From Corallococcus macrosporus DSM 14697 (GTDB lineage Bacteria; Myxococcota; Myxococcia; Myxococcales; Myxococcaceae): DNA of 64,000 nucleotides. Location: assembly GCF_002305895.1 (NCBI RefSeq), contig NZ_CP022203.1, positions 5,924,001 through 5,988,000 on the forward strand, given 5' to 3'. Numbering within the stretch: position 1 is the stretch's first letter; the number at the start of each line of letters is the position of its first letter. This document shows positions 271-36,060 of the stretch, in pieces. A program made the translations under genes and the position numbers. Below the pieces are notes generated by a model. It was not told the origin of the DNA and did no database searches. It worked only from the letters and a program-made list of their open reading frames with translations.

Positions 271-765
271 ATGAGCAAAGAGAGTTCCGTCGCCCCGACC
301 GAGCGCGTCAACATCGTCTACAAGCCCGCCACCGGCAATGCGCAGGAGCAGGTGGAGCTGCCGCTGAAGGTGCTGATGCTGGGTGACTTCACGGGGCAGG
401 AAGACGCCCGTCCGCTGGAGCAGCGCGCGCCCATCAACGTGGACAAGGCCAACTTCAACGAGGTCATGGCCCAGCAGAACCTCAAGGTCACGCTGACCGC
501 CGCCGACAAGCTCTCGGCCGACCCGGGCGCCACGATGAACGTGTCGCTCCAGTTCAAGAACCTGAATGACTTCTCGCCCGAGAGCGTCGTCAACCAGGTG
601 CCGGAGCTGAAGAAGCTGCTCGAGCTGCGCAGCGCGCTCAACGCCCTCAAGGGGCCCCTGGGCAACCTGCCGGCGTTCCGCAAGAAGCTCCAGGCCCTGC
701 TCGCCGACGAGGACGGCCGCAAGGCGCTCATCAAGGAACTGGGTCTGACCGAAGAGACCAAGTAG
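271..765 (+). CDS. tssB: T6SS contractile sheath small subunit TssB (VipA)
   Basis: 164 residues, the usual length for TssB. With TssC it forms the cytoplasmic contractile sheath that drives the Hcp tube. The N-terminal part has the family pattern: RVNIVYKPATG, then LPLKVLMLGDFTG around residues 32-45, then an INVDKANFNEVM-like stretch. The C-terminal half is helical and holds the segment that interlocks with TssC. ATG follows a good ribosome binding site (AAGGAG, 256-261). It starts the run tssB-tssC-hcp-tssE-tssF-tssG-tssH, all on the same strand, and is 25 bp from tssC. Identification is secure. Confidence 0.95.
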   Translation: MSKESSVAPTERVNIVYKPATGNAQEQVELPLKVLMLGDFTGQEDARPLEQRAPINVDKANFNEVMAQQNLKVTLTAADKLSADPGATMNVSLQFKNLNDFSPESVVNQVPELKKLLELRSALNALKGPLGNLPAFRKKLQALLADEDGRKALIKELGLTEETK

Positions 766-790
766 CCCTTTCCGGGGGAACCGAATCACC

Positions 791-2275: not shown

Positions 2276-2328
2276 AGCCCGTTTCACCCAGCGTCGGTCG
2301 TTTCAGCTAGTTTAGGGGCTCCAACAAG

Positions 2329-2351
2329 CCCGGGCTCACGGTGAGCCCGGG
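2329..2351 (+). terminator. Perfect GC-rich hairpin between tssC and hcp
   Basis: CCCGGGCTCAC at 2329-2339 and GTGAGCCCGGG at 2341-2351 are perfect complements around one central base, so the RNA can form a 10 bp stem with a 3 nt loop. There is no T run after it. It lies 44 bp before hcp. It could slow transcription out of tssBC, protect the hcp message, or be a DNA operator; the sequence cannot separate these. Confidence 0.5.
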
Positions 2352-2394
2352 TCCACCAGCGCGCGGACGCGCGCAAAGCGAAGAGGTTGAAGTC

Positions 2395-2886
2395 ATGGCT
2401 GAATCAGTACACCTGTACCTGAAGGCGAACGGGACGGACATCAAGGGCGACAGCACGCAGACCAGCCTGGGCCGCGCTGACTCCATCGAGTGCGTGGCCT
2501 ACAGCCAGAAGGTCTTCACCGCTCGCGAGGCCGGCTCCGGTCTGGCGACGGGCCGCCGCCAGTACGAGGGCATCGAAATCACCAAGCGCATCGACAAGGC
2601 GTCGCCGCTGCTGATGAAGGCCCTGTGCGAGAACCAGGTCATCGACGCGACCTTCAAGTTCTTCCGTCCCAACCCGACGGGCGACGGCACCACCGAGCAG
2701 TTCTACACGGTGTCCGTCAAGAAGGCGCGCATCAACGCCATCCAGCAGACGGTGCCGAACTCCTTCGTCCCCGCGAGCACCAACCTGCCCCCGATGGAGA
2801 CCGTCCAGCTGGTGTTCCACACCATCAACTGGACCATCACCAACGGCGGCGTCACGCACGAGGACACCTGGGACACCCAGCGTTGA
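2395..2886 (+). CDS. hcp: T6SS inner tube protein Hcp (TssD)
   Basis: 163 residues from ATG 2395. An upstream in-frame GTG at 2341 would add 18 residues that do not match the family, and GAAGAGG at 2379-2385 fits the ATG. Hcp hexamers stack into the tube that the sheath fires into target cells. Typical features: HLYLKANGTDIKGDS at the start, IECVAYSQKV, a GRRQYEGIEITKRIDKASP stretch, and VQLVFHTINWTI near the C-terminus. It has no signal peptide, as expected for T6SS substrates. It sits between the sheath genes and tssE. Confidence 0.95.
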   Translation: MAESVHLYLKANGTDIKGDSTQTSLGRADSIECVAYSQKVFTAREAGSGLATGRRQYEGIEITKRIDKASPLLMKALCENQVIDATFKFFRPNPTGDGTTEQFYTVSVKKARINAIQQTVPNSFVPASTNLPPMETVQLVFHTINWTITNGGVTHEDTWDTQR

Positions 2887-2968
2887 TGTCCTTCCCTCCA
2901 CCGGCCGTCCGCGCAGCGGGCAACGCGGGCGGCCGGGGGTTGGGATACCCTGTTGCTGAAGAGAACCC

Positions 2969-3364
2969 ATGGGCTCCCGAGGCTTGTTGTCGCGCATCGC
3001 TGAAGGCAACGGCACGCTCGCCCCACCTGGCGACGTCGTTGAATCCATCGCCGAGCACCTGCGCAGCCTGCTCAACACACGCAAGGGGGAGTCCGTGGCG
3101 TCGCCGGGCTACGGCATCCTGGACCTGAACGACGTCGTCCACTCCTACCCGTCGGCGATACCGCGGATGACGCAGTCCATCCGGCAGGCCATCCAGGAGT
3201 TCGAGCCGCGCCTGAAGAGCGTGGTGGTGAATTACAACGCGGATCCGGTGGACCCGACGGCGCTGCGCTTCGACATCACCGCCCAGTTGGCCACCCGGGA
3301 CCGGCGCGGCATGGTGCGCTTCCACACCCAGGTGCATCCAGGCGGGCGCGTGGACCTGTGGTGA
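2969..3364 (+). CDS. tssE: T6SS baseplate subunit TssE (gp25-like)
   Basis: 131 residues with the gp25/lysozyme-like wedge domain. It is a baseplate component that starts sheath polymerisation. Seen in the sequence: VVESIAEHLRSLLNTRKGE, GYGILDLND, then IRQAIQEFEPRLKSVVV. This is the normal order, with the conserved E-P-R-L motif near residue 80. The ATG at 2969 follows GAAGAGAACCC, a moderate ribosome binding site. It is 36 bp ahead of tssF. Confidence 0.93.
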   Translation: MGSRGLLSRIAEGNGTLAPPGDVVESIAEHLRSLLNTRKGESVASPGYGILDLNDVVHSYPSAIPRMTQSIRQAIQEFEPRLKSVVVNYNADPVDPTALRFDITAQLATRDRRGMVRFHTQVHPGGRVDLW

Positions 3365-3400
3365 GCCGGTGAATCCAGGGGTGCGTGGCGGAGGGCGAGG

Positions 3401-5152
3401 ATGTTCAGCAAGTATTACCTGAGCGAGCTGTCGTACCTGCGGGAGATGGGGCGCGCCTTCGGGCTGGCCAACCCCTCCGTCGCGGGCCTGTTGGTGGAGC
3501 GCGGCGCGGACCCGGACGTGGAGCGGCTGCTGGAGGGCTTCGCGTTCCTGGCGGCCCGCATCCGCGAGCGCGTGGACGACGACGTGCCGGAGCTGGTGCA
3601 CGGCCTCACCGAGCTGCTGCTGCCGCACTACCTGCGGCCCCTGCCCGCCTCCACCATCATCGAGTTCACCCCCCACCTGCGCGCGCTGCGCGGCCGCTCG
3701 CGGCTGCCGGCGGGGGCGGAGGTGGCGTCCCAGCCCATTGACGGCACGAGCTGCGTCTTCCGCACCACCACGGACGTGGACCTGCTGCCGGTGCAGCTCA
3801 CCGACGCGCTCCTGGACCGCTCGTCCATCACCGCGCCGGTGCTGCGGCTCTTCTTCCAGACGACGGAGCAGGGCCGCGCGGAGGTGCTGCGCGAGCAGGG
3901 CCTGCGCCTGTTCATCCACGCCGACCTGTCCGCCGCGTCGGTGGTGCTCCTGTGGCTGTTGCGCTACTGCCGTCAGGTGCGCGTGCGCGGCGTGGCCGCG
4001 CAAGGTGAAGGCATCAAGCTGGCGGCGAACGCCATCCAGCCGGTGGGCTTCCACCGCGACTTCAAGCTGCTGCCCTGGCCCCGCGCCAGCGAGGGCTACC
4101 GGCACCTCCAGGAGTACCTGACGCTGCCAGAGAAGTTCCTCTTCTTCGAGGTGCGGGGCCTGGACGCCGCCGCCGGGCTGAAGGAGGACCGCTTCGAGCT
4201 CGCCTTCCACCTGGAGCGTCCGCCGCCCCTGGACGCGCGCATCCACCGGGAGATGTTCCGGCTGCACTGCGCGCCGGTGGTGAACCTCTTCAGCGTGCCG
4301 GCGGACCCCGTCCTCCACCGCGCGCTGGACCGCGAGCACCTGCTGCGCGCGTCCGACCTGCCGCCCAACCACGCGGAGATCTACTCGGTGGACACGGTGA
4401 CGGGCCTGAAGGCGGGGCGCAACGAGCGCCGCGTCTACCGGCCCTTCTACGAGTTCACGCACACGGCGGGCGGGGACGCGGAGCAGGCCTTCTACCGGCT
4501 GCGCCGGGCGCCCTCGCCGCTGGACGAAGGCATCGACACGTACATCACCCTGGAGACGCCGCGGAACGTCGCGCCGGACGTCGCCGGGGAGGAGGCGCTG
4601 TCCATGGACCTGACGTGCACCAACCGCTCGCTGCCCTCGCGGCTGCAGGTGGGGGACCTGACGGCCTCCACGTCCGCCAGTCCCACGCAGGCGAAGTTCA
4701 AGAACATCTCCCCCGTGAGCCGGCCGGCGCGCGCGCCGCTGGGCTCCGAGCTGCACTGGCGGCTGCTGTCGCACCTGGCCATCAACCAGCACTCGCTGGC
4801 GGACGCGGCCGCGCTGCGGCGGCTGATGGACCTGTACAACTTCCACTCGCTCACCGACAACCTGGCGGCGCGCGCCAGCCGCCTGCGCATCAACGCCATC
4901 CGCGCGGTGGAGACGAAGCCGGTGACGCGCTTCCTGGAGGGCGCGCCGCTGCGGGGCCACCGCACGCGGGTGGACCTGGACGAAGAGAACTTCATGGGCG
5001 TGGGGGACTCGTTCCTCTTCGGCTGCGTGCTGGAGGAACTGCTCGCCTCCCACGTCACCATCAACTCCTTCAACGAGCTGAGCATCCGGCTTCACCCCTC
5101 GCAGACGGAGTTCGCGTGGCTTCCGAGGAACGGCACCCAGACGCTCTTGTAG
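3401..5152 (+). CDS. tssF: T6SS baseplate subunit TssF
   Basis: 583 residues, in the usual range for TssF (VasA/ImpG). Two TssF and one TssG form the trifurcated baseplate wedge. The N-terminus FSKYYLSELSYLREMGRAF and the following DPDVERLLEGFAFL are the family signature, and LVHGLTELLLPHYLRPLP lies near residue 70. ATG 3401 is preceded by GGAGGGCGAGG. The last 37 bases overlap tssG in another frame, which suggests coupled translation of the two wedge partners. Confidence 0.95.
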   Translation: MFSKYYLSELSYLREMGRAFGLANPSVAGLLVERGADPDVERLLEGFAFLAARIRERVDDDVPELVHGLTELLLPHYLRPLPASTIIEFTPHLRALRGRSRLPAGAEVASQPIDGTSCVFRTTTDVDLLPVQLTDALLDRSSITAPVLRLFFQTTEQGRAEVLREQGLRLFIHADLSAASVVLLWLLRYCRQVRVRGVAAQGEGIKLAANAIQPVGFHRDFKLLPWPRASEGYRHLQEYLTLPEKFLFFEVRGLDAAAGLKEDRFELAFHLERPPPLDARIHREMFRLHCAPVVNLFSVPADPVLHRALDREHLLRASDLPPNHAEIYSVDTVTGLKAGRNERRVYRPFYEFTHTAGGDAEQAFYRLRRAPSPLDEGIDTYITLETPRNVAPDVAGEEALSMDLTCTNRSLPSRLQVGDLTASTSASPTQAKFKNISPVSRPARAPLGSELHWRLLSHLAINQHSLADAAALRRLMDLYNFHSLTDNLAARASRLRINAIRAVETKPVTRFLEGAPLRGHRTRVDLDEENFMGVGDSFLFGCVLEELLASHVTINSFNELSIRLHPSQTEFAWLPRNGTQTLL

Positions 5153-6159
5153 AGACGGCCCAGAAGCTGGCCGGGCTGGCGCCGCGGGTGGGTTTCTTCC
5201 CGCTGGTGGCGTTCCTGGAGCGGCTGACGTCGCAGGCCACCCGCGTGGGCGGCGCGGGGCCCGTCAACGAGGAGATGATTCGCTTCCGGCATGACCCGTC
5301 CCTGGGCTTCTCCTCCGGGGACGTCACGTCGGTGACGCTGCACCAGGTGCCGGTGCGGGCGGAGGACCCGTACTCGAAGCGGCCGCTCTTCGAGGTGGTG
5401 ACGCGCTTCCTGGGCCTGACGGGCGCGGTGAGCCCCCTGCCGCACTTCATGGCGGAGGAGGTCGCGCAGGAGGACCCGGACCACCCGGTGCGGCGCGAGT
5501 TCCTGGACCTCTTCCACCACCGGCTGCTGTCGCTGCTGTACCGCATTGAATCGAAGTACCGCGTCACCAGCGAGACGGACACGTCCTTCTCGGACCAGTG
5601 GTCCCGGCGCCTGCTGGCGCTGGGGGGCTTCGACACCTACGAGCGGCCCCTGGAAGGGACGCTGCCCACCTGGCGCCTGCTGCGCATCGCCCCGCTGCTG
5701 GCCAGCCGGGCCAGGACGTCCGAGCAACTGGAGGTCGCGCTCGAGGACGTGCTGGGCGAGGACCTGGAGGGCGCGCGCGTGTCGGTGCGCCAGTTCGTGG
5801 GGCGCTGGGTGGACATCGACGCCCGGGCGCGGCTGGGCCACTCCAACCACCAGCTCGGCCGCAACATGCTGCTGGGGGGCCGGGCCTTCGACAGGACGGG
5901 GAAGATTCAAATCCACATCCGGCCGCTGCCGCCGCGCGCCTACAAGCGGCTGATGCAGGAGGGGGACCTGCTGCCCCTGGTGCGGGAGGTGGTGGCGCTC
6001 TTCGTGAGGGACCCCCTGGAGTACGATTTGGAGCTGGGGCTCACCGAGGGCGTGCAGCACCAGTTCCGGCTCTCCAGCAAGGAGCCGAGCCAGCTCGGGC
6101 GGGACACCTGGCTGGGCCTGAGCCAGCAGACGCAACTGAGCGTCCCCGTGGTGAAATGA
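5116..6159 (+). CDS. tssG: T6SS baseplate subunit TssG
   Basis: About 347 residues if it starts at GTG 5116, inside the end of tssF. The open frame runs further upstream, but that part lies wholly inside tssF and has no TssG features. The N-terminal GFFPLVAFLERL, then IRFRHDPSLGF and LTGAVSPLPHFMAEEV, are classic TssG (VasB/ImpH) blocks. The C-terminal LLGGRAFDRTGKIQIHIRPL also fits. It partners TssF in the baseplate wedge. The 37 bp overlap with tssF supports translational coupling. The exact start codon is an inference. Confidence 0.93.
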   Translation: MASEERHPDALVETAQKLAGLAPRVGFFPLVAFLERLTSQATRVGGAGPVNEEMIRFRHDPSLGFSSGDVTSVTLHQVPVRAEDPYSKRPLFEVVTRFLGLTGAVSPLPHFMAEEVAQEDPDHPVRREFLDLFHHRLLSLLYRIESKYRVTSETDTSFSDQWSRRLLALGGFDTYERPLEGTLPTWRLLRIAPLLASRARTSEQLEVALEDVLGEDLEGARVSVRQFVGRWVDIDARARLGHSNHQLGRNMLLGGRAFDRTGKIQIHIRPLPPRAYKRLMQEGDLLPLVREVVALFVRDPLEYDLELGLTEGVQHQFRLSSKEPSQLGRDTWLGLSQQTQLSVPVVK

Positions 6160-6199
6160 AACGCCAGAGCCGGTATACCGTCCACCTTCGCTGTCACTC

Positions 6200-8848
6200 T
6201 TGGGGGCTCCCATTCGCGTCGATCCGAAAGCGCTCGTCCGTCGCCTGACGCCCACCTCTACCCGTCTGCTCGAGGCCGCCGTGGCCCGGGCAAGCGCGGG
6301 ACGGTTCTATGAAATCGTCCCGGAGCACCTGCTGGTGCAGATGCTGGAGCCTGAGGACTCGGACGTCGCGCGCATCCTCCAGCAGTTCGGCGTGGACCGC
6401 CGCCAGCTCCTGGCCAGCATGGAGCGCGCCCTCCAGGGCCTGCGCGCGGGCAACGCCGGCCGCCCCGTCTTCTCCGAGACGCTGTTCCAGTGGTTCGAGG
6501 AGGCGTGGCTGCTGGCCTCCGTGGAGCAGGGCGCCACGCGGCTGCGCTCGGGCCTGCTCTTCACGCAGTTCGTCAGCCGGCGCTCGCGCTACACCGCGGA
6601 GCTGTTCCCGGAGCTGGACGCCATCCGCCGCGACGAGCTGTTGGAATCGCTGGACGTGGTGCTGCGGCCGTCGCCGGAGAACGTGGAGGTCGCCACCGCG
6701 GACGCCGCCGCCAGTGGCGCCGCGGGCGGCGTGGCCGGCAGCCGCGGGGACGAGGCCCTCAAGCGCTTCGCCACGTCCTTCACCGGCCGGGTGCGCGAGG
6801 GGAAGATCGACCCCATCTTCGGCCGGCACCGTGAAATCCGGCAGATGGTGGACATCCTCTCCCGCCGCCGGAAGAACAACCCCATCCTGGTGGGCGAGCC
6901 CGGCGTGGGCAAGACGGCGCTCGTGGAGGGCCTGGCCTGGGCCATTGTCCGGGGCGAGGTGCCCGACGCGCTGAAGAACGTGGAGCTGCTGGGGCTGGAC
7001 CTGGGCCTGCTCCAGGCGGGCGCGGGCGTGCGCGGCGAGTTCGAGAACCGCCTCAAGGCCGTCATCGCCGAGGTGAAGGCCTCCCCCACCCCCATCATCC
7101 TGTTCATCGACGAGGCGCACACCATCATCGGCGCGGGCGGCTCGCAGGGCGGCACGGACGCGTCCAACCTGCTCAAGCCGGCGCTGGCGCGCGGCGAGCT
7201 GCGCACGCTCGCGGCCACCACCTGGGCCGAGTACAAGAAGTACTTCGAGAAGGACGCCGCGCTGGAGCGGCGCTTCCAGCCGGTGAAGGTGGAGGAGCCT
7301 GGCGTGGAGGACGCGGAGCTGATGCTGCGCGGCCTGCGGCCCACCTACGAGGCGGCCCACGGCGTCATCATCCGCGACGAGGCCGTCACCGCCGCGGTGC
7401 ACCTGTCCAGCCGCTACATCTCCGGCCGGCAGCTCCCGGACAAGGCGGTGGACCTGCTCGACACGTCCGCGGCCCGGGTGAAGATTGAGCTGTCCACCCG
7501 GCCCGAGGAGCTGGTGCAGTTGGACCAGGAGATTTCGGCGCTGGAGCGCGAGCGCGACGCGCGCAAGCGCGACCTGGCGGAGAGCACGGGCGGCACGGAT
7601 GCCCAGGCCACGCTGGAGGAGGTGGAGGCGAAGCTGAGCGCCACGGTGGACAGCCGCGCCGCGCTGCACGCGCGCTGGGAGACCGAGCGCACCGCGGTGG
7701 CGGCGCTGCTGGAGGCGCGCAAGGCCCTGCGCGAGGCGCCCGCGGACACGGACACCGCGCCCCTGAAGGCGGCGGTGGACGAAGCGGCGGCGAAGCTGGC
7801 CGCCACGCGCGGCGAGGTGCCGCTGGTGCACGCGGACGTGGACGCGGACATCGTCGCGCGCGTCGTCGCGGGCTGGACGGGCGTGCCCGTGGGGAAGATG
7901 CGCAGCGACCTGCTCGAGTCCGTGCTCAACCTGGAGGACAAGCTCCGGGGCCGGGTGCGCGGCCAGGAGGCGGCGCTGACGAAGGTGGCGGAGATCATCC
8001 GCATCTCCCAGGCGGGCATCCGCAACCCGGACACGCCCATTGGCGTCATGCTCTTCGTGGGCCCCAGCGGCGTGGGCAAGACGGAGACGGCGCTGGCGCT
8101 GGCGGACGCGCTGTACGGCGGCGAGCGCTTCATGACGACGCTCAACATGAGCGAGTTCCAGGAGAAGCACACGGTGAGCCGGCTCATCGGCTCGCCGCCG
8201 GGCTACGTGGGCTATGGCGAGGGCGGCCTGCTGACGGAGGCGGTGCGGCAGCGGCCCTACTCCGTCGTGCTGCTGGACGAGTGCGAGAAGGCCGACCTGG
8301 AGGTGATGAACCTCTTCTACCAGGTGTTCGACAAGGGCTCGCTGACGGACGGCGAGGGCCGCGCGGTGGACTTCAAGAACACCGTGCTCATCCTCACCAG
8401 CAACCTGGGCTCGGACCTGGTGATGCGGATGTTCGAGGACGGCGCGCAGCCCACCTCCGAGGAGGTGCTGTCGGTGATTCGCCCCACGCTCAGCCAGCAC
8501 TTCAAGCCGGCGCTGCTGGCGCGCATGACGGTGGTGCCCTTCGGCCCGGTGCAGCGCGACGTGATGCGCCAGATCGCGGAGATGAAGCTGGCCAAGCTGG
8601 TGGGCCGGCTGCGCGAGGCGCACAACGTGGAGACCACGCTGGCGCCGGAGCTGCTGGACGAGCTGGCGCGCCGGTGCACCGAGTCGGAGATGGGGGCGCG
8701 CAACATGGAGCAGATCCTCCAGGGCTCGCTGATGCCGGCGCTGTCCCGCGAGCTGTTGCAGCACCTGGTGGGCGGCGCGGTGCCCCCGAAGCTGCACGTG
8801 GCCCTGACCGAGACAGGCGACTGGGACCTCCGGTTCGCCGAGGCCTGA
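6200..8848 (+). CDS. tssH: T6SS sheath-recycling ATPase TssH (ClpV)
   Basis: 882 residues, a Hsp100 protein with two AAA+ modules. It extracts TssC and disassembles contracted sheaths in the cytoplasm. Walker A sites are GEPGVGKT (about residue 233) and GPSGVGKT (about 621). The D1 Walker B is ILFIDEAHT and D2 is VVLLDECEKA. The D2 pore loop PPGYVGYGEGG is intact (about 668), and a coiled middle region lies near 430-530. The C-terminus GARNMEQILQGSLMP is typical of ClpV. No in-frame ATG fits, so TTG 6200 is chosen (CTG 6191 is possible) and no clear ribosome binding site is seen. It is the last core T6SS gene here. Confidence 0.93.
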   Translation: MGAPIRVDPKALVRRLTPTSTRLLEAAVARASAGRFYEIVPEHLLVQMLEPEDSDVARILQQFGVDRRQLLASMERALQGLRAGNAGRPVFSETLFQWFEEAWLLASVEQGATRLRSGLLFTQFVSRRSRYTAELFPELDAIRRDELLESLDVVLRPSPENVEVATADAAASGAAGGVAGSRGDEALKRFATSFTGRVREGKIDPIFGRHREIRQMVDILSRRRKNNPILVGEPGVGKTALVEGLAWAIVRGEVPDALKNVELLGLDLGLLQAGAGVRGEFENRLKAVIAEVKASPTPIILFIDEAHTIIGAGGSQGGTDASNLLKPALARGELRTLAATTWAEYKKYFEKDAALERRFQPVKVEEPGVEDAELMLRGLRPTYEAAHGVIIRDEAVTAAVHLSSRYISGRQLPDKAVDLLDTSAARVKIELSTRPEELVQLDQEISALERERDARKRDLAESTGGTDAQATLEEVEAKLSATVDSRAALHARWETERTAVAALLEARKALREAPADTDTAPLKAAVDEAAAKLAATRGEVPLVHADVDADIVARVVAGWTGVPVGKMRSDLLESVLNLEDKLRGRVRGQEAALTKVAEIIRISQAGIRNPDTPIGVMLFVGPSGVGKTETALALADALYGGERFMTTLNMSEFQEKHTVSRLIGSPPGYVGYGEGGLLTEAVRQRPYSVVLLDECEKADLEVMNLFYQVFDKGSLTDGEGRAVDFKNTVLILTSNLGSDLVMRMFEDGAQPTSEEVLSVIRPTLSQHFKPALLARMTVVPFGPVQRDVMRQIAEMKLAKLVGRLREAHNVETTLAPELLDELARRCTESEMGARNMEQILQGSLMPALSRELLQHLVGGAVPPKLHVALTETGDWDLRFAEA

Positions 8849-9966: not shown

Positions 9967-10041
9967 TATTTGCGGCAAATGCGTCACGACGACAGAGATA
10001 GGGGCGTGGGCCCATGGTGGGCCCCGGAAGGAGCGTCCTGG

Positions 10042-10407
10042 ATGCGAGTCGAAATCCGAGCCCGGAACATCCCCCTCACAGAGACCCTTCGAACCTACAC
10101 CGAGCGCCGCGTGCGCTTCGCCCTGGACCGGCTGTCCGACAGGGTGAGGGACGTGGTCGTCCGGCTGGAGGATGCCAACGGCCCCAAGGGGGGCGTGGAC
10201 CAGGTGTGCCGCGTGGCGCTCCGGCTGGAGCACGGGCGGGAGCTGGCCATCGAGTCCTCGGATACGAACCTGCTGGCGGCCATCGACCGGACGTTGGAGC
10301 GCGCCAGCAACGCCGTCACCCGCGCGGTGGGGCGCGCGCAGCGGCAGGACGGCGCCCGGCTGCGTGACGCGGCCTGGCAGCCCGACGAGGCCGCCGGCCT
10401 GACATGA
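10042..10407 (+). CDS. HPF/RaiA-like ribosome-associated protein
   Basis: 121 residues from ATG 10042, with GGAAGGAG (10026-10033) upstream. An earlier in-frame start at 9970 would add a non-conserved leader. The start MRVEIRARNIPLTETLRTY, and a beta-alpha pattern with RRVRFALDRLSDRVRDVVVRL, fit the S30AE (HPF/RaiA) fold. These proteins bind the small ribosomal subunit and promote hibernation or inhibit translation under stress. It is the short form, lacking the long C-terminal dimerisation domain. It stands alone between a terminator and the thioredoxin-like gene. I do not know which stress controls it. Confidence 0.75.
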   Translation: MRVEIRARNIPLTETLRTYTERRVRFALDRLSDRVRDVVVRLEDANGPKGGVDQVCRVALRLEHGRELAIESSDTNLLAAIDRTLERASNAVTRAVGRAQRQDGARLRDAAWQPDEAAGLT

Positions 10408-19208: not shown

Positions 19209-19229
19209 CAAATCCGCCGGACTGGACAG

Positions 19230-19256
19230 CCGGCCCCGCGACGTGAGCGGGGCCGG
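19230..19256 (+). terminator. GC-rich hairpin after the LamG gene
   Basis: CCGGCCCCGC (19230-19239) and GCGGGGCCGG (19247-19256) are perfect complements with a 7 nt loop, 21 bp after the LamG stop. There is no T run. It likely separates this gene from the Clp-like operon that starts at 19316. Confidence 0.65.
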
Positions 19257-19315
19257 TCAGCTCCCGAGGGCTCATGCCGTCACGCACGGCACCGCTTTCA
19301 CCCGAGCCCTCACCC

Positions 19316-22300
19316 ATGAACTTCCGTTTTCAATGCTGGTTGCAGCGGCACGTCAGCGGCCGGGTGACGCTCACGCCGCTGGCCCTGCGCCACCTGGCGG
19401 TCCACGCGGACACGCTGGAGGCCGCGGTGGAAGAGCTGACGCTCGCGCTGGACGACCAGCTCTCCCGCGTCCATCCCCGGCGGGTGCCGGAGTTCATCCG
19501 CCCCACCGAGGGGACCCTCCACCCGCTGACCGTCCCCGCGATTCCCGTCTGGGGCGAGACGGAGACCGAGCTCGCGCCGCTGTCGCTGTCCACCGTGGTC
19601 GCCCCCACCCTCCAGTCCTTCGTGGGCCTCCACGCGCCTCGGCTGGAGGCCCACCTGTGGTTCCAGGCCACGGAGCTCCCGGCCGACACCGTGGAGCGGC
19701 TGGCGGAGCGCCTGGACGGGATGTCCGACGCCCTCCGCCTCTCGCTGCGCCCGGATGACGCCGAGTCCCTGATGGACATCGAGGTGCGGGCCACGCCGAC
19801 GGCGCTCGCGGCCCTCACCCCCCGCGAGCTGCACCGCGACCTCCGCCCGCCGCCCCGCCCGCCTGACGCGCCCGCGGAGCCGGATGCCGACGAACGGGAT
19901 GACGACGAAGACGCGCTCGACCAGGACACCTGGGAGCCGCGCCGCCGCTCCCACCCGCGCGACGCAGGGAGCCGTCCCACGACGCCGCCGCCCACGCCCA
20001 CGCTGGACAGCGTCGGCGTGCCCTGGCACCGGCTGGCGCAGGAAGGACAGCTCGACGCGGCCCACGAACAGGACGCCCTGGTGACGCTGCTGCGCACCCG
20101 GCTCGGCGCCAGGGACGCGGAGGCCGTGGTGCTGGTGGGGCCTTCGGGCGTGGGCAAGACGTCGGTGTTGCACGCGCTCGCCCAGGCGCTGCGCGCGCCC
20201 ACCGCGAGCGAGGCCGAGCAGGCCCGCCCCTTCTACTTCCTGGACGGGAGCCGCCTCATCGCTGGCGAGGGCTTCGCGGGGGACTGGCAGCAGCAGGTGC
20301 TGCGCGCCTTCCGGGAAGCCACCGATGCCCGGGCCCTGCTCTCCCTGGGCCACGCCGTGGAGCTGCTGGACGCGGGCAAGAGCGCGCACAGCGATGAGAA
20401 CGTGGCCCAGTTGCTGCTGCCGCTGCTCGCGACGCGCGAGGTGGCCGTCGTGGCCGAGGCCACGGAGGAGACGTGGGCCCAGGTGGAGCGGCGCAACACG
20501 AGCTTCGCCCGGCTCTTCTCCGTGGTGCGCGTCGCGGAGCCCACCCCGGAGGCCCTCACCCGCATCCTCGCGAAGGTGGCGGAGGACGAGGCCACCAGCG
20601 CCCTGGAGGTCCGCGCGGAAGCGCTCGACGAGGCGCGCTTCCTCTGCCGCCGCTTCCTGCCCTACGGCGCCCAGGTGGGCAACGCCGTGGCCTTCCTGCG
20701 CCGGTTGATGGCCTCCAGCGCGCAGGCCTCGCGCCCCGTCGTCACGCGCCTGGAGGCCATCCGGCAGTTCGCCTCCGAGTCAGGCATCCCGGAAGCCCTG
20801 CTCCGCGACGACGTGCCCCTGGACGCGGCGCAGGTGCGCGCCTTCCTCTCCGCCCGCGTGCTGGGCCAGGACGCCGCCGTGGAGCGCTCCGCCTCGGTGG
20901 TCTCCGTCCTCAAGGCGGGCCTGGCGGATGTGCGGCGCCCGCTGGGCGTCCTCCTCTTCGTGGGCCCCACGGGCGTGGGCAAGACGGAGCTGTCCAAGGC
21001 GCTGGCGGAGCTGCTCTTCGGCGCGAAGGAGCGCATGGTCCGCCTGGACATGGGGGAGTACGCCGGCCCGGACGCGCTGCTGCGGCTGTTGGGAGATGGC
21101 GAGACGCCCGGCCACCTCTCCTCGGCGGTGCGCCGTCAGCCCTTCTGCGTCGTACTTCTGGACGAGGTGGAGAAGGCCCACCCCGCCGTGCATGACGCGC
21201 TGCTGGGCGTGCTGGGCGAGGGCCGCCTCACGGACGCCTCCGGCCGCTTCACCGACTTCCGCAACGCGCTCATCATCCTCACCAGCAACCTGGGCGCGGA
21301 CACGCTGCGCGCTCGCGTGGGCTTCGACGCCTCGGGTGGCGCGCCCGACCTGGCCGGCCTCCGCGCGCACTACCTCGCCGAGGTGCAGCGGTTCTTCCGG
21401 CCGGAGCTGTTCAACCGGCTGGATGACGTGGTGGTCTTCTCCCCCCTGCCGGAGGCCTTGCTGCGCCGCCTGGTGGTGCGCGAGGTGGACGCCGTGTGCC
21501 GCCGCCCGGGCCTCTCCCTGCACGACGCGGTGCTGGAGGTGACCCCCGCCGCGCAGGACTGGCTCGCCGTGCGCGGCTTCGACGCGCGCTATGGCGCCCG
21601 GCCGCTGAAGCGCGCCCTGGAGCGGGAGCTGGTGGTGCCCGTCTCCGACTGGCTCGCGGCCCATCCGCGCGGGGGCCCGGCGCGCCTCACGGTCGACGCC
21701 GGTGAGAAGGGGCTGCACCTGCGCGCGGAGAGCGTGGGCGGCGAGGCGGAGGGCGTGGGGCGGGAGGCCATCGAGCGCATCCTGGAGGACGCCGCCACCG
21801 TCCGCGCGGAGGTGCAGCGCTGGAGCCGCTGTCCCCCCATGGTCTCCCTGCGGCGGGGGCTGAGCGTCTTCGACAAGGTCTCCCGCCAGGCCGCCTTCTG
21901 GGAGGAGCGCGAGCTGGCGGAGGCAGACGCTCGCAAGTCTTCGGAGGCGCGCGAGCTGGACAAGGCCCTGCTGGCGTGTGTCCAGCAGGCGGAGGCCATC
22001 GAGGACCTCCTCTTCGAGGCGCACCTGTCGCGCGCCGTGGAGCAGGCGGACTCCCTGCGCCGGGAGGTGCGCCAGTTGAAGGCGACCTTCGAGCGCGTCC
22101 GGGAGCGCATCTACACCTCCCTCTTCCCGCATACGCGCGGCGCGACGCTCTGCCTGGTGCCGGGACGCGGCGCCTGGAGCAAGGTGCGCCTGCTGGCGGC
22201 GGCCTACGAGACGTGGGCCGAGCAGAACGGCCTGGAGAAGAAGCGCTGCCTGCTCACCGTCCCCGCGCGCAAGCCCGGCGAAAAGGGGCCTCGCACGCAG

Positions 22301-22708
22301 CAGCCACCCCAGTGGCGCTGGGCGGACAAGGAGGACCTCGACAAGCTCGAGGTGCAGCCCTTGGCCTACGCGCTCCAGGTCAAGGGAGGCGCGTCGGCGC
22401 TGCGGCTCGCCGGTGAGCACGGGATGCACCGCTTCATCGAGGGCAGTCAGGTTTCAATGGTGCACGCCGACTTCGTGCCCCAGGCGCACGTGCCGGTGAC
22501 GCTCTCCCCCCTGGAGACGCTCCAGCAGCGGCGGCCCCGGAAGGAGATCCGCCAGGTGCGCCTGTCTGGCAGCGGCACCGGCGAGGGCACGCTGTTGGAC
22601 CTCCGCACGGGCGTCCAGCAGCGCTTCGGGCCTGGCGGCCTGACGCTGGAGCCGCTGATGGCGCCGTGGATGCAGTGGCGCGTCTTCAACGGCCAACACG
22701 AGGACTGA
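19316..22708 (+). CDS. Clp-like double AAA+ ATPase with release-factor-2-like C-terminus
   Basis: 1130 residues from ATG 19316 (ATG 19274 is in frame but less likely). Order: a beta/helix N-terminal domain, not a Clp-N repeat; a charged linker (about 180-235); D1 with Walker A GPSGVGKT (about 275) but no D1 Walker B acidic pair (LLSLGHAVEL); D2 with GPTGVGKT (about 549), VVLLDEVEKA and RPELFNRLDD. The GYVGY pore loop is replaced by a short GETPGH. After the sensor, RVGF resembles a ClpP-docking tripeptide. From about 825 it follows RF2: FWEERELAEADA, a helical hairpin, a PCRF-like GEHGMHRF, then LLDLRTGVQQRF, with no GGQ domain. First gene of a three-gene operon; function unknown. Confidence 0.85.
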   Translation: MNFRFQCWLQRHVSGRVTLTPLALRHLAVHADTLEAAVEELTLALDDQLSRVHPRRVPEFIRPTEGTLHPLTVPAIPVWGETETELAPLSLSTVVAPTLQSFVGLHAPRLEAHLWFQATELPADTVERLAERLDGMSDALRLSLRPDDAESLMDIEVRATPTALAALTPRELHRDLRPPPRPPDAPAEPDADERDDDEDALDQDTWEPRRRSHPRDAGSRPTTPPPTPTLDSVGVPWHRLAQEGQLDAAHEQDALVTLLRTRLGARDAEAVVLVGPSGVGKTSVLHALAQALRAPTASEAEQARPFYFLDGSRLIAGEGFAGDWQQQVLRAFREATDARALLSLGHAVELLDAGKSAHSDENVAQLLLPLLATREVAVVAEATEETWAQVERRNTSFARLFSVVRVAEPTPEALTRILAKVAEDEATSALEVRAEALDEARFLCRRFLPYGAQVGNAVAFLRRLMASSAQASRPVVTRLEAIRQFASESGIPEALLRDDVPLDAAQVRAFLSARVLGQDAAVERSASVVSVLKAGLADVRRPLGVLLFVGPTGVGKTELSKALAELLFGAKERMVRLDMGEYAGPDALLRLLGDGETPGHLSSAVRRQPFCVVLLDEVEKAHPAVHDALLGVLGEGRLTDASGRFTDFRNALIILTSNLGADTLRARVGFDASGGAPDLAGLRAHYLAEVQRFFRPELFNRLDDVVVFSPLPEALLRRLVVREVDAVCRRPGLSLHDAVLEVTPAAQDWLAVRGFDARYGARPLKRALERELVVPVSDWLAAHPRGGPARLTVDAGEKGLHLRAESVGGEAEGVGREAIERILEDAATVRAEVQRWSRCPPMVSLRRGLSVFDKVSRQAAFWEERELAEADARKSSEARELDKALLACVQQAEAIEDLLFEAHLSRAVEQADSLRREVRQLKATFERVRERIYTSLFPHTRGATLCLVPGRGAWSKVRLLAAAYETWAEQNGLEKKRCLLTVPARKPGEKGPRTQQPPQWRWADKEDLDKLEVQPLAYALQVKGGASALRLAGEHGMHRFIEGSQVSMVHADFVPQAHVPVTLSPLETLQQRRPRKEIRQVRLSGSGTGEGTLLDLRTGVQQRFGPGGLTLEPLMAPWMQWRVFNGQHED

Positions 22709-22712
22709 CGAC

Positions 22713-25700
22713 ATGGACCTGAGACTTCCCTTCGTGGTGGCGCCGCGCGGCGGCCGGCTCGTGGAGGCGTGGGTGCCCGCCTTCTTCCCCGCGCTGCACA
22801 AGGTGGGGCCCAGCCTCTCCACGCTGCGGGATGAGCTGGCGCTCGCCGTCATGGAGCGCTTCGAACGCGAGCCCGCGTCGCGCCTGGCGCAGTACCAGCT
22901 CCCCCCGCACTTCGCCCTGAAGCAGGTGACCGTCGGCGCGGAGGCCCGCGACCGGGAGAAGGCCCGGAACATCCTCCTCGAAGGCAACATGACGGTGCTG
23001 CTGGAGAAGTGGCCCCGCGACACCTTCTGGGTCGTCACCCCCACCCGCCTGCCCGAGGCGCGCTTCGCGCTGAGCGAACCGGCGGCCCTGCCCCAGGCGC
23101 TCGCGCGCCGGCTGGTGGCGTGGTGCCTGGAGCACGGGCTCGACTCCCTGGACGAACAGTGGACCCAGGGCCGGGAGCGGCTGGAGCTCCTGGAGGTGGA
23201 CGCCTATGCCCCCACCATCCTTCCCCGCACGCCGCCCCGGCCGCGGACGCCGCGCCGCCGCAAGCCGCGCACGCCCGCGAAGGAGGAGACCGCCCCCGAG
23301 ACACCCGAGCAGCGCGAGGCCCGCCGCAACCGCCGCCGCCTGTCGCTGGTGGAGCTGCGCGCCGTGGCCCGGAACCTGAGCCACGGGGCCCGGGACGACA
23401 CCTTGGAGCGCTGCTTCGGCCGCGAGGCGCTGGTGTGCGAGCTGGTGGAGGCGCTCGAAGGCCGCGAGGGCTCCGCGCTGGTGCTGGTGGGCCCGTCGGG
23501 CGCGGGAAAGACGGCGCTCATCCACGAGGCCGTGCGGCGCCTCACCGCCCGGCAGGAAGCCGCGGGCACGCGCCGCGACGTGTGGCGCGTGGACGGCAAC
23601 CAGTTCATCGCGGGGATGATGTACGTGGGCCAGTGGGAGGCCCGTGCCCGCGGCGTGGTGAAGGAGCTGATGGAGGTCGGCGACCTGCTCTACGTGGACG
23701 ACCTGGCGTCGCTCGTCTACGCGGGGCGCACGCGCAATGAGCGCACCAACGTGGCGCAGTTCCTGGAGCCGCACATGGCCCGGGGCGAGCTGACGGTGCT
23801 CGCCGAGTCCACCCCGGAGCGCTTCGAGCGCGTGCGGGAAGAAGCGCCGACGCTCGCGTCCTTGTTCCGCGTCATCCACGTGCCCGCCCTGGACGCGCGC
23901 GCCACGCTGCCCGCGCTGCTGGGAACGCTGCGCGAGTTGGAGGCCGAGAGCGCGGACAGCAGCGTGCGGCTGTCGCCCGTGGCCCTGGAGACCTTGCTGA
24001 CCCTGCAGCAGCGCTTCGTGTCGCACGAGGCGTTTCCGGGGAAGGCGGTCCGCCTGCTGCGCCGGGTCCTCGCCCGCGAAGGCAGCGTGGAGGCCGGCAC
24101 GCGCCGGCTGACGACGGGGGACGTCATCGCGGCGATGCGCGAGCAGACGGGCCTGCCGGACTTCGTCCTGGGCAGCGCCCAGCCGAAGACGCGCGAGGCG
24201 CTGACGTGGGAGCTGGGACGCCAGGTGGCGGGCCAGCCCGAGGCCGTGGCCGCCGTGACGGATGCCATCCTCACGCTCCAGGCCGCGCTCCAGCCCCCCG
24301 ACAAGCCGCTGGCCACCTACCTCTTCGTGGGCCCCACGGGCGTGGGCAAGACGGAGACGGCGAAGGCCCTGGCGCGGACGCTCTTTGGTGGCGAGCAGCG
24401 GCTGGTCCGCTTCGACATGTCGGAGTTCGTCACGTCGGCCAGCATCACCCGGCTGCTCGGCAGGCCCGGCGCGCCGGATGGCGAGCTGACCACGGCCCTG
24501 CGCACCCAGCCCTTCTGCGTGGTGCTGTTCGACGAGGTGGAGAAGGCCCACCCGCGCGTGTTCGACGCCCTCCTCCAGTTCCTCGGCGAGGGGCGCCTCA
24601 CGGATGGCGCGGGCCGCACCGTGGACGCGCGCCAGTCCGTCGTCGTGCTCACCAGCAACCTGGGCGTGCGCGAGGCCGCCGCCCATACCGGCTTCCACCG
24701 CACCGCGGACAGCGCGGAGGCCCACTACCTGTCCGCCGTGCGCGCGTACTTCCGCCCGGAGTTCTTCAACCGGCTGGACCGGGTGGTGCCCTTCCGCCCG
24801 CTGACGCCCGCCGCGCTGCGCGTGGTGGTGGACCACGCGCTCGAAGCCCTCCTGTCTCGCCACGGCATCCGCCGCGGCAACGTCCTGGTGGAGGTGGAGC
24901 CGCGCCTGTTGGACCTGCTGGTGGAGGAGGCCTACGACCCGCGCTACGGCGCCCGGCCCCTCAAGCGCGCGCTGGAGAAGCGCCTGACGCTGCCGCTGGC
25001 CCACCACCTGGTCCGGCGGGGCGCGGACGACCTGGCCCGCGTGGAGCTGCTTCGGGACGGCGACGAGATGCGCGTCTGCGTGGAGCTGCTGGTCAACGCC
25101 CCCGCCTGGCCCCCCGAGCCGCCTGTGTCCTCCTGGACGCTGGCGCAGATCTCCACCGAGCTGACGGCGCTCTCCGCGCGCCTGGAGTCCTTGATGGCGG
25201 CCGCGGAGGCGGCGCGCGCGGCCGGCGCCGAGGGCTCCGTGGAGGAGCGGGAGTTCCTCGAGCGGCTGCACCGGCTGAGGCTCGAGGCCACCGACATCCA
25301 GGAGAACGAGCTGGTGTCGCGCGACTTCGAGGACTCGGAGTCGCGGGTGACCAAGGTGATGCGTCAGGTGACCTCCCACGCCCACCACGTGGGCCATCTG
25401 GGGCTGCGTCACCGCCCCGCCTACCAGGAGCGTCCCCTGCCCGTGTCGCGGGAGGAGCAGCTTCGCCGCTCGCGGCCCCGGGTGCTGTCCCTGCGGGACG
25501 AGGTGGCCTGGACCGAGCACCAGCTCGCGAGCCGGGAGCGCGGCCCCGACGTCATCACCGTGCTGGCGGAAGGACTGGGAGACGCCACGCCCTCCGCCGT
25601 CTGGACCGCGGCCAACTCCCTCCCCACGGCCCTGGCGGAGACCACCGTGTTCCTGGAAGCCGTCCACGCGGACGGGCGCGTCGAGTGGTTCTCGGGCAGT

Positions 25701-26126
25701 GACGAGCGCTCGGACGACCTGGAGCTGCGGCGCGTCGTGGTGCGGCTGTCGGGCCTGGGCCTGCGGGAGGTGCTGGCGCCCCTGCAGGGCTATGCCCTGG
25801 TGGAGCTCGACCAGGGAGCTTCGACGCGGCCGGTGCTGGTGCGTCTGGAGCACCTGGCTGGCGCCGTGACGGACCTGGGCGATGTGGCTCGCGAGGTGGC
25901 GGCGCGGGACGCGCTCCGCGGCGCCGAGCGAGCGGCGCTCAGGGCGGGGACCACGTCAGCCGACGCCCCCCGCTACGTCATCCTGCGAGGCTACGAGGGC
26001 ATCATGTCCTGGAGAGAGGGCCACACCACGACGGAGCTCCTGCACGTCGCCAGCGGAGTCCACCCCACCAAGGCCCACGCCTGGGCGGCACGGGTGCTCC
26101 GAGGCTCCGGCCCGAGGCGCGACTGA
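22713..26126 (+). CDS. Second Clp-like double AAA+ ATPase with long C-terminal extension
   Basis: 1137 residues; ATG 22713 lies 4 bp after the previous stop. The N-terminal domain resembles those of the neighbours (MDLRLPFVVAPRGGR). A Pro/Arg/Lys-rich linker (about 165-200) follows. D1 has GPSGAGKT (about 260) and Walker B LLYVDDLAS, where the glutamate is Asp. D2 has GPTGVGKT (about 540), VVLFDEVEKA and RPEFFNRLDR, but GRPGAPDG in place of the aromatic pore loop, and HTGF after the sensor. Residues about 800-1137 hold a coiled coil and a beta-rich part; PRYVILRGYEGIMSWREG is placed like the C-terminal part of RF2, but the match is weak. Function unknown, presumably partners the flanking ATPases. 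Confidence 0.85.
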   Translation: MDLRLPFVVAPRGGRLVEAWVPAFFPALHKVGPSLSTLRDELALAVMERFEREPASRLAQYQLPPHFALKQVTVGAEARDREKARNILLEGNMTVLLEKWPRDTFWVVTPTRLPEARFALSEPAALPQALARRLVAWCLEHGLDSLDEQWTQGRERLELLEVDAYAPTILPRTPPRPRTPRRRKPRTPAKEETAPETPEQREARRNRRRLSLVELRAVARNLSHGARDDTLERCFGREALVCELVEALEGREGSALVLVGPSGAGKTALIHEAVRRLTARQEAAGTRRDVWRVDGNQFIAGMMYVGQWEARARGVVKELMEVGDLLYVDDLASLVYAGRTRNERTNVAQFLEPHMARGELTVLAESTPERFERVREEAPTLASLFRVIHVPALDARATLPALLGTLRELEAESADSSVRLSPVALETLLTLQQRFVSHEAFPGKAVRLLRRVLAREGSVEAGTRRLTTGDVIAAMREQTGLPDFVLGSAQPKTREALTWELGRQVAGQPEAVAAVTDAILTLQAALQPPDKPLATYLFVGPTGVGKTETAKALARTLFGGEQRLVRFDMSEFVTSASITRLLGRPGAPDGELTTALRTQPFCVVLFDEVEKAHPRVFDALLQFLGEGRLTDGAGRTVDARQSVVVLTSNLGVREAAAHTGFHRTADSAEAHYLSAVRAYFRPEFFNRLDRVVPFRPLTPAALRVVVDHALEALLSRHGIRRGNVLVEVEPRLLDLLVEEAYDPRYGARPLKRALEKRLTLPLAHHLVRRGADDLARVELLRDGDEMRVCVELLVNAPAWPPEPPVSSWTLAQISTELTALSARLESLMAAAEAARAAGAEGSVEEREFLERLHRLRLEATDIQENELVSRDFEDSESRVTKVMRQVTSHAHHVGHLGLRHRPAYQERPLPVSREEQLRRSRPRVLSLRDEVAWTEHQLASRERGPDVITVLAEGLGDATPSAVWTAANSLPTALAETTVFLEAVHADGRVEWFSGSDERSDDLELRRVVVRLSGLGLREVLAPLQGYALVELDQGASTRPVLVRLEHLAGAVTDLGDVAREVAARDALRGAERAALRAGTTSADAPRYVILRGYEGIMSWREGHTTTELLHVASGVHPTKAHAWAARVLRGSGPRRD

Positions 26127-26127
26127 C

Positions 26128-28422
26128 ATGGAAAAGAACGTCCACCTCTTCGTGCGCCACTACCCGGGCGTGGGCGTGGCGGCCCAGGTCCTCACCCACC
26201 CGCACCTGGCGTCCTTCGCGCCCACCCTGGCCGCCGCGCGGCTCGACCTCGCGGCGGTGGTGGGCCGGCTCCTCAAGCGCGGTGAGCTCTGGGACGAGGA
26301 GACGCACTGGAGCGACCTGCGCCAGCGGCGGATGACGCTCACGGTGCGCGCGCTCGACCATGGCCGGATGCTCCCGGTGCCGCTGCGCCTCACGGTGCTC
26401 ACCCATGGCATGAAGTCCCGCGCCAAGGGCAAGGGCGCCACGGAGCGCGAGAAGCTGCGCGTGTGGGTGCCCCGCGTGGGCGTCGAGGGCACGCTGCATG
26501 ACGCGGCGGACCTGGAGCCCTTCGTCGAGGAGCTGGTCCGTCACGAGCTGTACCTGGCGCCCCTGGAGCGCCTTCACGCCCTGGCCTACGTGGGTGAGGA
26601 GCAGGTGGAGACGCTGTCGGTGCCCGCCAGCTTCCGAGACACCCCTCGCGCGCGCGCCACGGAGGTCTCGAAGCAGCCGCGCCGCTTTGCCCCACCGCCG
26701 GGGCTCGCGGAGGCCAGCCGGTGCCTCAACGAGGAGGCGCGCGCCGGGCTGCTGGAGCGGGCCTGGGAGCGGAACGCGGAGGTGTCCCGCCTGGCGGAGG
26801 CCGTCACCGCGAAGGCCCGCGCCAGCGTGCTCCTGGTGGGCCCCGCGTCCGTGGGGAAGACGGCCCTGGTGCATGAGCTGGTGCAGCGCGCGGAGGCGGC
26901 CACCGCGGGCACCCCGCTCCACGGCGTGGAGTTCTACAGCTCGTCGGGCGGGCGCATCATGGCTGGCATGCGCTACCTGGGGCAGTGGCAGGAGCGCGTC
27001 CAGCGCATGGTGGAGGCCCTGCGCGTGCGCCGCGCGGTGCTCCACCTGGACAGCCTGTCGGAGCTGCTGTCCCTGGGCGGCGGTGACACCGGCCTGGACG
27101 TGGCGCGCCACCTGCTCCCCGCGCTGGAGGGCGGTGAGATTTCCCTCGTGCTGGAGGCCACCCCCGAGGACGTGGCCCGCGCGGAGCGGACCCACGGCGC
27201 CTTCCTTCAAGCGCTGCGGCACCTCGCGGTGGCCCCGCTGGCGCCCATGGCCGCGCACGCCGCGCTCCAGCAGGCCGCGCAGCGCGTGGGCCGCGCCCGC
27301 AAGGTGCGCTTCACCCCCGAGTCCCTGGAGCGCGCCAGCGAGCTCACGGAGCGCTTCGGCGACGGGCCTCCGCCGGGCGGCGCCGTGTCACTGCTCCGCG
27401 CCGCCAGCGCGGGCCCCAACGCGGCGGGAGACGTGGACACCGCGTCGGTGACGAGCGCCTTCTGCACTCGCACCGGCTATCCCCGCGAGCTGGTGGACCC
27501 CGCCATCCGGTTGGACCCGGACGCCCTGCTGCGCCGCTTCCGCGAGCGCGTCGTCGGCCAGGACGAAGCCACCCTGCTCCTGCGCAACCTGGTCGTCACC
27601 CTGAAGACGGGGCTGGCCGACCCCACCCGCCCGCTGGGCGCCTTCCTCCTGCTGGGCCCCACGGGCGTGGGCAAGACGGAGTCGGCGCTCGCACTGGCGG
27701 AGTACCTGTTCGCCGACGTCGCCCGGCTGGCGCGCTTCGACATGGCGGAGTACGCCGCGCCCGGGAGCGCCGCGCGACTGGTGGGCGAAGCCGGAGGCCA
27801 GCAAGGCGGGCTCGCCCGGCGGGTGCGCGAACAGCCCTTCGGCGTGGTGCTGCTGGACGAGGTGGAGAAGGCGGACACGGGCGTCCATGACCTGCTGTTG
27901 CAGGTGCTGGGCGAAGGCCGGCTCACGGACGCCACGGGCCGCACCGTCAGCTTCCGCAACACCGTGGTGCTGCTCACCAGCAACCTGGGCGCGGACAGCG
28001 CGGGGCGCGGACTGGGCTTCGGAGCGCGCGGCGTCCAGGAGCAGGCAACGCACTACCTGGGGGCCGCGGCGGCCTTCTTCCGGCCCGAGCTGCTGAACCG
28101 CCTGGACCGGGTGGTGCCGTACCGCGCGCTCACGGAGGACGTCATCGCAGCACTCGCCCGGCGCGCGCTGGAGGCGGCCCTCGCCCGCGAGGGGCTCAGC
28201 CGCCGCGGCGTGAAGGTGACGTTTGGCGAGGACGTGGTGAAGCACCTGGCGCGCACCGGCTTCGACGCGCGCTATGGGGCCAGGCCCCTGAAGCGCGCCG
28301 TGGAGCAACAGGTGGTCGCGCCCCTGGCGCGGTGGCTGGCGGCTCAGGCCACCCGCGCTCCGCCCCAGGTGGTGCTCCGCGTGGGCACCGAGGGGCGGAT
28401 TGCGTTGAGCGGCCTCGAGTGA
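26128..28422 (+). CDS. Third Clp-like double AAA+ ATPase
   Basis: 764 residues from ATG 26128, 1 bp after the previous stop; the upstream open frame lies inside that gene. It has the same N-terminal type (MEKNVHLFVRHYPGVGVA, then a long helix) and two AAA+ modules, without a C-terminal extension. D1 Walker A is GPASVGKT (about 237) and Walker B is VLHLDSLSE, lacking the glutamate. The D1 pore-like loop AGMRYLGQWQER is present. D2 has GPTGVGKT (about 510), VVLLDEVEKA, RPELLNRLDR, GEAGGQQG in place of GYVGY, and GLGFG after the sensor. It ends with the D2 small domain GFDARYGARPLKRAVEQ. It probably forms mixed rings or a relay with the two previous proteins. Confidence 0.87.
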   Translation: MEKNVHLFVRHYPGVGVAAQVLTHPHLASFAPTLAAARLDLAAVVGRLLKRGELWDEETHWSDLRQRRMTLTVRALDHGRMLPVPLRLTVLTHGMKSRAKGKGATEREKLRVWVPRVGVEGTLHDAADLEPFVEELVRHELYLAPLERLHALAYVGEEQVETLSVPASFRDTPRARATEVSKQPRRFAPPPGLAEASRCLNEEARAGLLERAWERNAEVSRLAEAVTAKARASVLLVGPASVGKTALVHELVQRAEAATAGTPLHGVEFYSSSGGRIMAGMRYLGQWQERVQRMVEALRVRRAVLHLDSLSELLSLGGGDTGLDVARHLLPALEGGEISLVLEATPEDVARAERTHGAFLQALRHLAVAPLAPMAAHAALQQAAQRVGRARKVRFTPESLERASELTERFGDGPPPGGAVSLLRAASAGPNAAGDVDTASVTSAFCTRTGYPRELVDPAIRLDPDALLRRFRERVVGQDEATLLLRNLVVTLKTGLADPTRPLGAFLLLGPTGVGKTESALALAEYLFADVARLARFDMAEYAAPGSAARLVGEAGGQQGGLARRVREQPFGVVLLDEVEKADTGVHDLLLQVLGEGRLTDATGRTVSFRNTVVLLTSNLGADSAGRGLGFGARGVQEQATHYLGAAAAFFRPELLNRLDRVVPYRALTEDVIAALARRALEAALAREGLSRRGVKVTFGEDVVKHLARTGFDARYGARPLKRAVEQQVVAPLARWLAAQATRAPPQVVLRVGTEGRIALSGLE

Positions 28423-33216: not shown

Positions 33217-35871
<2,655 letters not shown>

Positions 35872-36060
35872 GGCTGGGCTCCCCGGGGCACCCTTGGCGC
35901 GGGCGCCCACGAATGACGGTTCAGCCCCAACGCTAGGGATGGCCCGGGCGCCCTACCTCGGGCCCAGGGCTGGGGCAGGCGTCCAGGGTGGCCCCCCGTT
36001 GCAGGGGGCGATAACCTGCCGGAAGCGCCGCTCTTTCTACGCCCTCCGGGAGTCCCCGAC

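Follow-up and report, generated by a model that had tools for sequence, protein, structure and literature searches.

The operon and its neighbourhood

The window analysed here, by which we mean the whole stretch of 64,000 nucleotides, covers positions 5,924,001-5,988,000 of the single-contig 8.97 Mb genome of Corallococcus macrosporus DSM 14697, and its relatives belong to Myxococcus, Corallococcus, and Archangium. Three genes for Clp-like ATPases follow one another on the forward strand:

19274..22708, forward strand: P0001, the first Clp-like ATPase of the operon (ORF of 1144 aa)
22713..26126, forward strand: P0002, the second Clp-like ATPase (1137 aa)
26128..28422, forward strand: P0004, the third Clp-like ATPase (764 aa), without a release factor (RF) tail

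P0001, P0002, and P0004, separated by gaps of 4 and 1 bp, are one compact operon, and their order is constant in every locus long enough to show it. The likely start codon of P0001, judged from a distant ortholog, is ATG 19316. Downstream of the operon lie genes for a superoxide dismutase (SOD), a flavin reductase, and a molybdopterin oxidoreductase. A very stable hairpin (CCGGCCCCGC ... GCGGGGCCGG; folding z-score -3.8) is located just 5' of the operon start at 19209-19315 (+); it has no T-run and may be either a leader element or the terminator of the preceding gene. Elsewhere in the window, an ORF at 9970-10407 (+) resembles, by eye only, the hibernation factor HPF/RaiA (S30AE-type N-terminus), and a group II intron reverse transcriptase/maturase (RVT_1 and GIIM) is encoded at 42118-44082 (-).

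A type VI secretion system (T6SS) lies 10 kb upstream of the operon:

271-8848, forward strand: T6SS cluster with TssB, TssC, Hcp, TssE, TssF, an ORF at the TssG position, and a Clp ATPase at the ClpV position

This proximity would fit an operon that supplies accessory ATPases to the secretion system. However, five genomes from three genera (G027, G092, G093, G141, and G143) keep the tails described below and have no VipB match, so the T6SS is not a required partner, and among the Corallococcus-like g31 genomes VipB was found in 16/16 and the operon in 7/16. A T6SS role is thus largely refuted, and we give it almost no weight.

Anatomy of the ATPase motor

P0001 is ordered as an N-domain, AAA D1, AAA D2, and an RF2-derived tail. 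Its Pfam matches (AAA_2, AAA, and ClpB_D2-small) reach residue 794, and the N-terminal domains of P0001, P0002, and P0004 (19316-19843, 22713-23220, and 26128-26700) gave no significant Pfam match. The motor of P0001 consists of two modules:

20036..20713, forward strand: AAA+ module D1 of P0001, with Walker A retained and LGHA instead of DE in a degenerate Walker B
20771..21709, forward strand: AAA+ module D2 and D2-small domain of P0001, catalytic motifs intact, VGF loop

Two AAA modules followed by a D2-small domain place these proteins in the Hsp100/Clp group. The Walker A and B motifs, Arg finger, and sensor 2 of D2 are essentially invariant in P0001, P0002, P0004, and P0005, a paralog encoded elsewhere in the genome, while the D1 Walker B motif is degenerate across the four families (LGHA, VDDL, LDSL, and IRDL). 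Judging from these motifs, D2 would hydrolyse ATP and D1 would act mostly as a nucleotide-binding scaffold. The aromatic D2 pore loop GYVG is replaced; P0002 and P0004 retain an aromatic pore loop in D1. An [LIVMT]GF tripeptide aligns with the IGF of the ClpA of this genome, and its ClpB/ClpC-type proteins have none. It reads VGF in nearly all P0001 proteins, LGF in P0004, TGF in P0002, and mostly MGF, IGF, or LGF in P0005. The tripeptide, a candidate for docking, stands where ClpA docks ClpP, but TGF in P0002 departs from the classic motif.

Like ClpA, ClpB, and ClpC, these ATPases have two AAA modules with ClpB_D2-small and the D2 catalytic motifs, and a GF loop lies at the IGF position of ClpA. 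Unlike them, they show no Pfam match to Clp_N, their alignment has no insert of M-domain length, their D1 Walker B is degenerate, the D2 GYVG is absent, and RF tails are attached. Their scores against the NCBIfam Clp models were far below every Clp equivalog cut-off. On these features we would file P0001 neither as a canonical Clp unfoldase, because of its D1 Walker B and D2 pore loop, nor as a release factor, because GGQ and SPF are absent.

An RF2-derived tail on P0001

The C-terminal 330 residues of P0001 (window 21713-22705) form the RF2-derived domain. A sequence-only reading of this DNA had proposed an RF2-like tail at 21790-22640, fused to a Clp-like ATPase and lacking the piece that carries GGQ and reads stop codons. 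The strings that it quoted (FWEERELAEADA, AAAYETWAEQNG, GEHGMHRF, EIRQVRL, and LLDLRTGVQQRF) are all found in ORF 19274-22708, and an RF-like part does lie in the proposed interval, with slightly wider limits of about 21749-22699. Its elements, in order, are as follows:

21749..22126, forward strand: RF2 domain-1-like helical domain (tail residues 13-138), from the AlphaFold2 model, structure alignment, and conservation
22139..22477, forward strand: PCRF-like core of the RF2 codon-recognition domain (alpha/beta, tail residues 143-255), with E-x-G-M-H-R-F at 22415-22435
22478..22543, forward strand: poorly conserved junction of ~22 residues, which replaces the roughly 95-residue GGQ domain
22544..22699, forward strand: C-terminal RF2-like strands and final helix, with EIRQVRL (IRSYVL in RF2) and LLDLRTGVQQRF (DLRTGVE in RF2)

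An AlphaFold2 model of the tail, whose input alignment held the 39 orthologs only and no RF, reached a pLDDT of 87.6 and a pTM of 0.82. When this model was compared with the PDB by Foldseek, ranks 1-46 were all RF2, RF1, mtRF1, or PrfH, with RF2 the best (E 1.5e-10); the fold is that of release factors and not an unrelated one. VIA-align superposed 255 residues on RF2 (Z 17.7, rmsd 6.2), including residues 18-138 on RF2 domain 1, and the core alone fitted with an rmsd of 2.5 over 139 residues.

The evidence from sequence is fainter in the window copy than in its relatives. Pfam gave no PCRF or other match for the last 330 residues of this P0001, and phmmer found nothing for them in the PDB, so the signal needed orthologs or structure. 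The PCRF match that had been suggested as a check was obtained in 29/39 orthologous tails searched singly (best E 2.3e-8, some over the Pfam cut-off), with the GGQ domain absent. Profile-profile comparison of the 39 tails with RF2 gave E 6.6e-5 and a second colinear segment at E 0.002, and comparison with the P0005 tail gave E 3.3e-6 and a second colinear segment, containing DLRTG, at E 0.021; reversed-profile controls scored E 0.13-0.44. The codon-recognition (PCRF) fold with E-x-G-x-H-R and the C-terminal DLRTG strand is present in the P0001 tail, and 39/39 tails retain GxHR and DxRT. One further match to the tail (G039/L045) was discarded as an amidohydrolase-like chance match.

A tail in decay, or a coincidental likeness to release factors, might be suggested by the missing PCRF match in the window copy and by a rough dN/dS of 0.31-0.69 for the tail among close and moderately close relatives. 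Against this, the P0001 frame is full-length and open in 27/27 genus members, about 55 tail positions show at least 97% identity, and the model, Foldseek, and PCRF matches point to release factors only; this explanation is refuted, and its chance is negligible. We therefore have next to no doubt that a Clp ATPase is fused here to an RF2-derived tail from which RF parts have been deleted.

What the tail has lost

In bacterial release factors, a helical domain that interacts with GTPases precedes a stop-codon domain, and the GGQ domain sits within the latter as an insert (PMC6514570); the P0001 tail, as modelled, is this layout with the inserted domain removed. It shares with RF2 (prfB) the common fold of helical domain 1, codon-recognition core, and C-terminal DLRTG strand with helix, and differs from it in being joined to an AAA+ ATPase and in the deletions. 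GGQ was found in 0/39 P0001 tails and 0/26 P0002 tails, compared with 10/10 RF2 controls. SPF, PxT, and the GG[TD]E helix tip were each found in 0/39 P0001 tails, with SPF in 10/10 of the RF2 controls; where this loop should join two strands, at 22442-22447, there is a two-residue turn in place of SPF. Both missing pieces named by the sequence-only reading are thus indeed gone.

In release factors the decoding site is touched by the SPF loop and by the helix tip GG[TD]E. Without GGQ, the tails are expected, on established RF chemistry, to be unable to release peptides. Codon reading appears very unlikely, and binding to the ribosome in the manner of a normal RF is unlikely because both of these decoding contacts are gone as well.

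A second tail, a paralog, and their distribution

Two observations go beyond the sequence-only reading, namely an RF-fold tail on P0002 and a clearer fusion, P0005, elsewhere in the genome:

25137..26123, forward strand (25068-26123 as modelled): RF-fold tail of P0002, a fold match more diverged than that of P0001
genome 1774222-1777044 (L012:4223-7045), reverse strand: P0005, stand-alone Clp-like ATPase with an RF2-like tail (951-aa frame)

The AlphaFold2 model of the P0002 tail, built as for P0001, had a pLDDT of 84.4. Foldseek ranks 1-42 were all release factors (best E 1.1e-5), and VIA gave Z 11.2 against RF2 (1gqe), with two designed three-helix bundles scoring above it that match only the helices of the tail. 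A comparison with RF2 by sequence gave no signal (E 0.04-0.3), and the homology of this tail is therefore argued from its fold and its position as a sister.

P0005 was found in a search of the genome with Pfam PCRF, which returned RF1, RF2, and, passing the cut-off with E 1.4e-16, this third locus. From the P0005 set, rows with GGQ or SPF were removed as true RF2s (nine in the deeper set); the cleaned tails matched the RF2 profile over 242 columns (E 1e-17). GGQ occurs in 0/56 of them, a count made on a set already purged of rows with GGQ or SPF, and the P0005 tail itself has neither motif. In the alignment that still included the nine RF2s, P0005 lacks the ISPFDA loop of RF2, a helical stretch of 22 residues, and part of the GGQ loop. 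Its gene neighbourhood showed nothing informative. In the AAA tree, P0001, P0002, and P0004 group together with support of 94/93; the branches are long, and the tree is compatible both with a single fusion event shared by P0005 and with a separate one (AU p 0.19). For experiments, P0005 would be a suitable second starting point.

The P0001 tail is present in 27/27 genus members and, together with the P0002 tail, in the same 39 genomes from five genera of the order; outside the genus the distribution of the operon is patchy. P0005 occurs in most of the Myxococcaceae genomes searched and in one genome of a neighbouring family. Among the genomes searched, all these fusions are confined to Myxococcaceae and that one neighbouring family, and the other genomes of the phylum had separate RFs only. 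Two long frames outside Myxococcaceae (G156 and G185) proved to be genuine RF2s, which contain GGQ and lack an AAA module. Record BNCN01000002.1 ('Comamonas sp. KCTC 72670', L183) holds a Myxococcus-type P0005 with 90% identity and is probably mislabelled.

Chloramphenicol response of the operon in Myxococcus xanthus

In M. xanthus, MXAN_4823-4825 were up-regulated 6- to 12-fold after 8 h of chloramphenicol (log2FC 3.57/2.67/2.61) and remained raised in chloramphenicol-adapted cells (log2FC 1.47/2.17/1.92; PMC6617876). Their assignment as the orthologous operon rests on synteny: in our genome only these three Clp-like genes are adjacent and are then followed by SOD, flavin reductase, and molybdopterin oxidoreductase. 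IorB is MXAN_4829, at the molybdopterin oxidoreductase position (PMC3222651). The next Clp gene in order is MXAN_4832 in M. xanthus and 33217-35910 in the window, and genome G023 (locus L107) shows this gene order. Because chloramphenicol changed 1920 genes at 8 h and 481 in adapted cells (PMC6617876), the induction is not specific; it supports a role in translation and does not prove one.

Possible function of the tailed ATPases

Conservation within the P0001 tail peaks in the helical domain (0.69), with 0.37-0.63 in the remainder (core 0.56-0.63; core insert and GGQ junction lowest, 0.37-0.42). The role of this domain in release factors is interaction with GTPases (PMC6514570). In two diverged orthologs, G092 and G093 (L222:2853-4010 and L221:6870-8027), the core insert contains an L7/L12-CTD-like piece (E 1.4e-5, just below the cut-off, and 0.034), and a similar piece was seen, by eye only, in G027; it may hint weakly at a further link to the factor-binding stalk.

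Because the helical domain is the most conserved part and chloramphenicol induces the operon, we favour, with a probability of about 0.5, a Clp-type ring that acts under translation stress and that the RF helical domain directs to translation factors or to the factor site of the ribosome. P0001 and P0002, double-AAA ATPases of the Hsp100/Clp type whose C-termini are the RF2 fold minus the GGQ domain, the SPF loop, and the decoding helix tip, would assemble with the tail-less P0004, probably as a mixed ring. The tails, which would release no peptide and probably read no codon, most likely tether this ring to the factor-binding region of the ribosome or to translation factors via the helical domain. 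The tethered ATPase would then remodel or extract something when translation stalls and possibly hand it over to ClpP via the [LIVMT]GF loops. That the D2 GYVG loop is lost speaks against ordinary threading into ClpP, and the tails follow D2 on the putative ClpP-docking side and could exclude ClpP.

Targeting of the ribosome without release, as suggested by the sequence-only reading, is plausible, with chances that we judge to be even, but caution is needed, as no known decoding contact has survived. Since the known contacts of release factors with the decoding and peptidyl-transferase centres are all lost, the fold may serve a non-ribosomal use, and the main rival is that it was co-opted off the ribosome as a protein-protein module, either a substrate adaptor or a ring-assembly domain. 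The loss of all three RF motifs that touch rRNA or mRNA, a P0002 tail so diverged that the fold alone remains, and a core less conserved than the helical domain would suit such a module, but induction by a ribosome inhibitor (PMC6617876) and the greatest conservation in the domain that meets translational GTPases in release factors (PMC6514570) speak for translation. We regard this rival as a serious contender, clearly short of even odds.

The tail could also be a plug or competitor in the A site or factor-binding region, pausing or protecting ribosomes as in hibernation until the ATPase removes it. An RF layout without GGQ, comparable to catalytically inactive Dom34 and baeRF-1 (PMC6514570), and the chloramphenicol induction (PMC6617876) agree with this, whereas the SPF loop and helix tip of the decoding centre are lost, and the operon has no conserved hibernation-factor neighbour, the HPF-like gene of the window lying outside it. 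We consider such a plug improbable.

Relation to known systems and significance

PrfH (RFH) is likewise an RF derivative minus a domain, but the reverse of the P0001 tail, having lost the helical domain and kept GGQ (PMC6514570). Vms1-Cdc48, in which an RF-like protein is teamed with an AAA+ motor, and Dom34, an RF paralog without the catalytic Gln that is used in rescue, are analogies only; Vms1 and Dom34 belong to the unrelated aeRF-1 superfamily, are separate polypeptides, and have no sequence relation to the P0001 tail. Our favoured ring might be a covalent bacterial counterpart of such an RF-like adaptor with its AAA+ motor, in which GGQ-less RF2 domains aim a mixed Clp-type ring at stalled ribosomes or bound factors, to be remodelled or fed to ClpP under translation stress; we hold this fuller reading tentatively, at a little under even chances. 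To our knowledge, no factor for rescue or quality control in bacteria combines the fold of a release factor with an unfoldase.

The architecture of an RF-tailed Clp ATPase appears to be undescribed, as no description of it was found in the open literature searched. The term 'Clp' is absent from a release-factor census (PMC6514570), which centres on the peptidyl-hydrolase (GGQ) domain, the part deleted here, and would therefore probably overlook them. If the tails do bind ribosomes, these ATPases would represent a new bacterial way to apply ATP-driven force to stalled translation, and M. xanthus, whose operon has a documented chloramphenicol response, allows a direct test.
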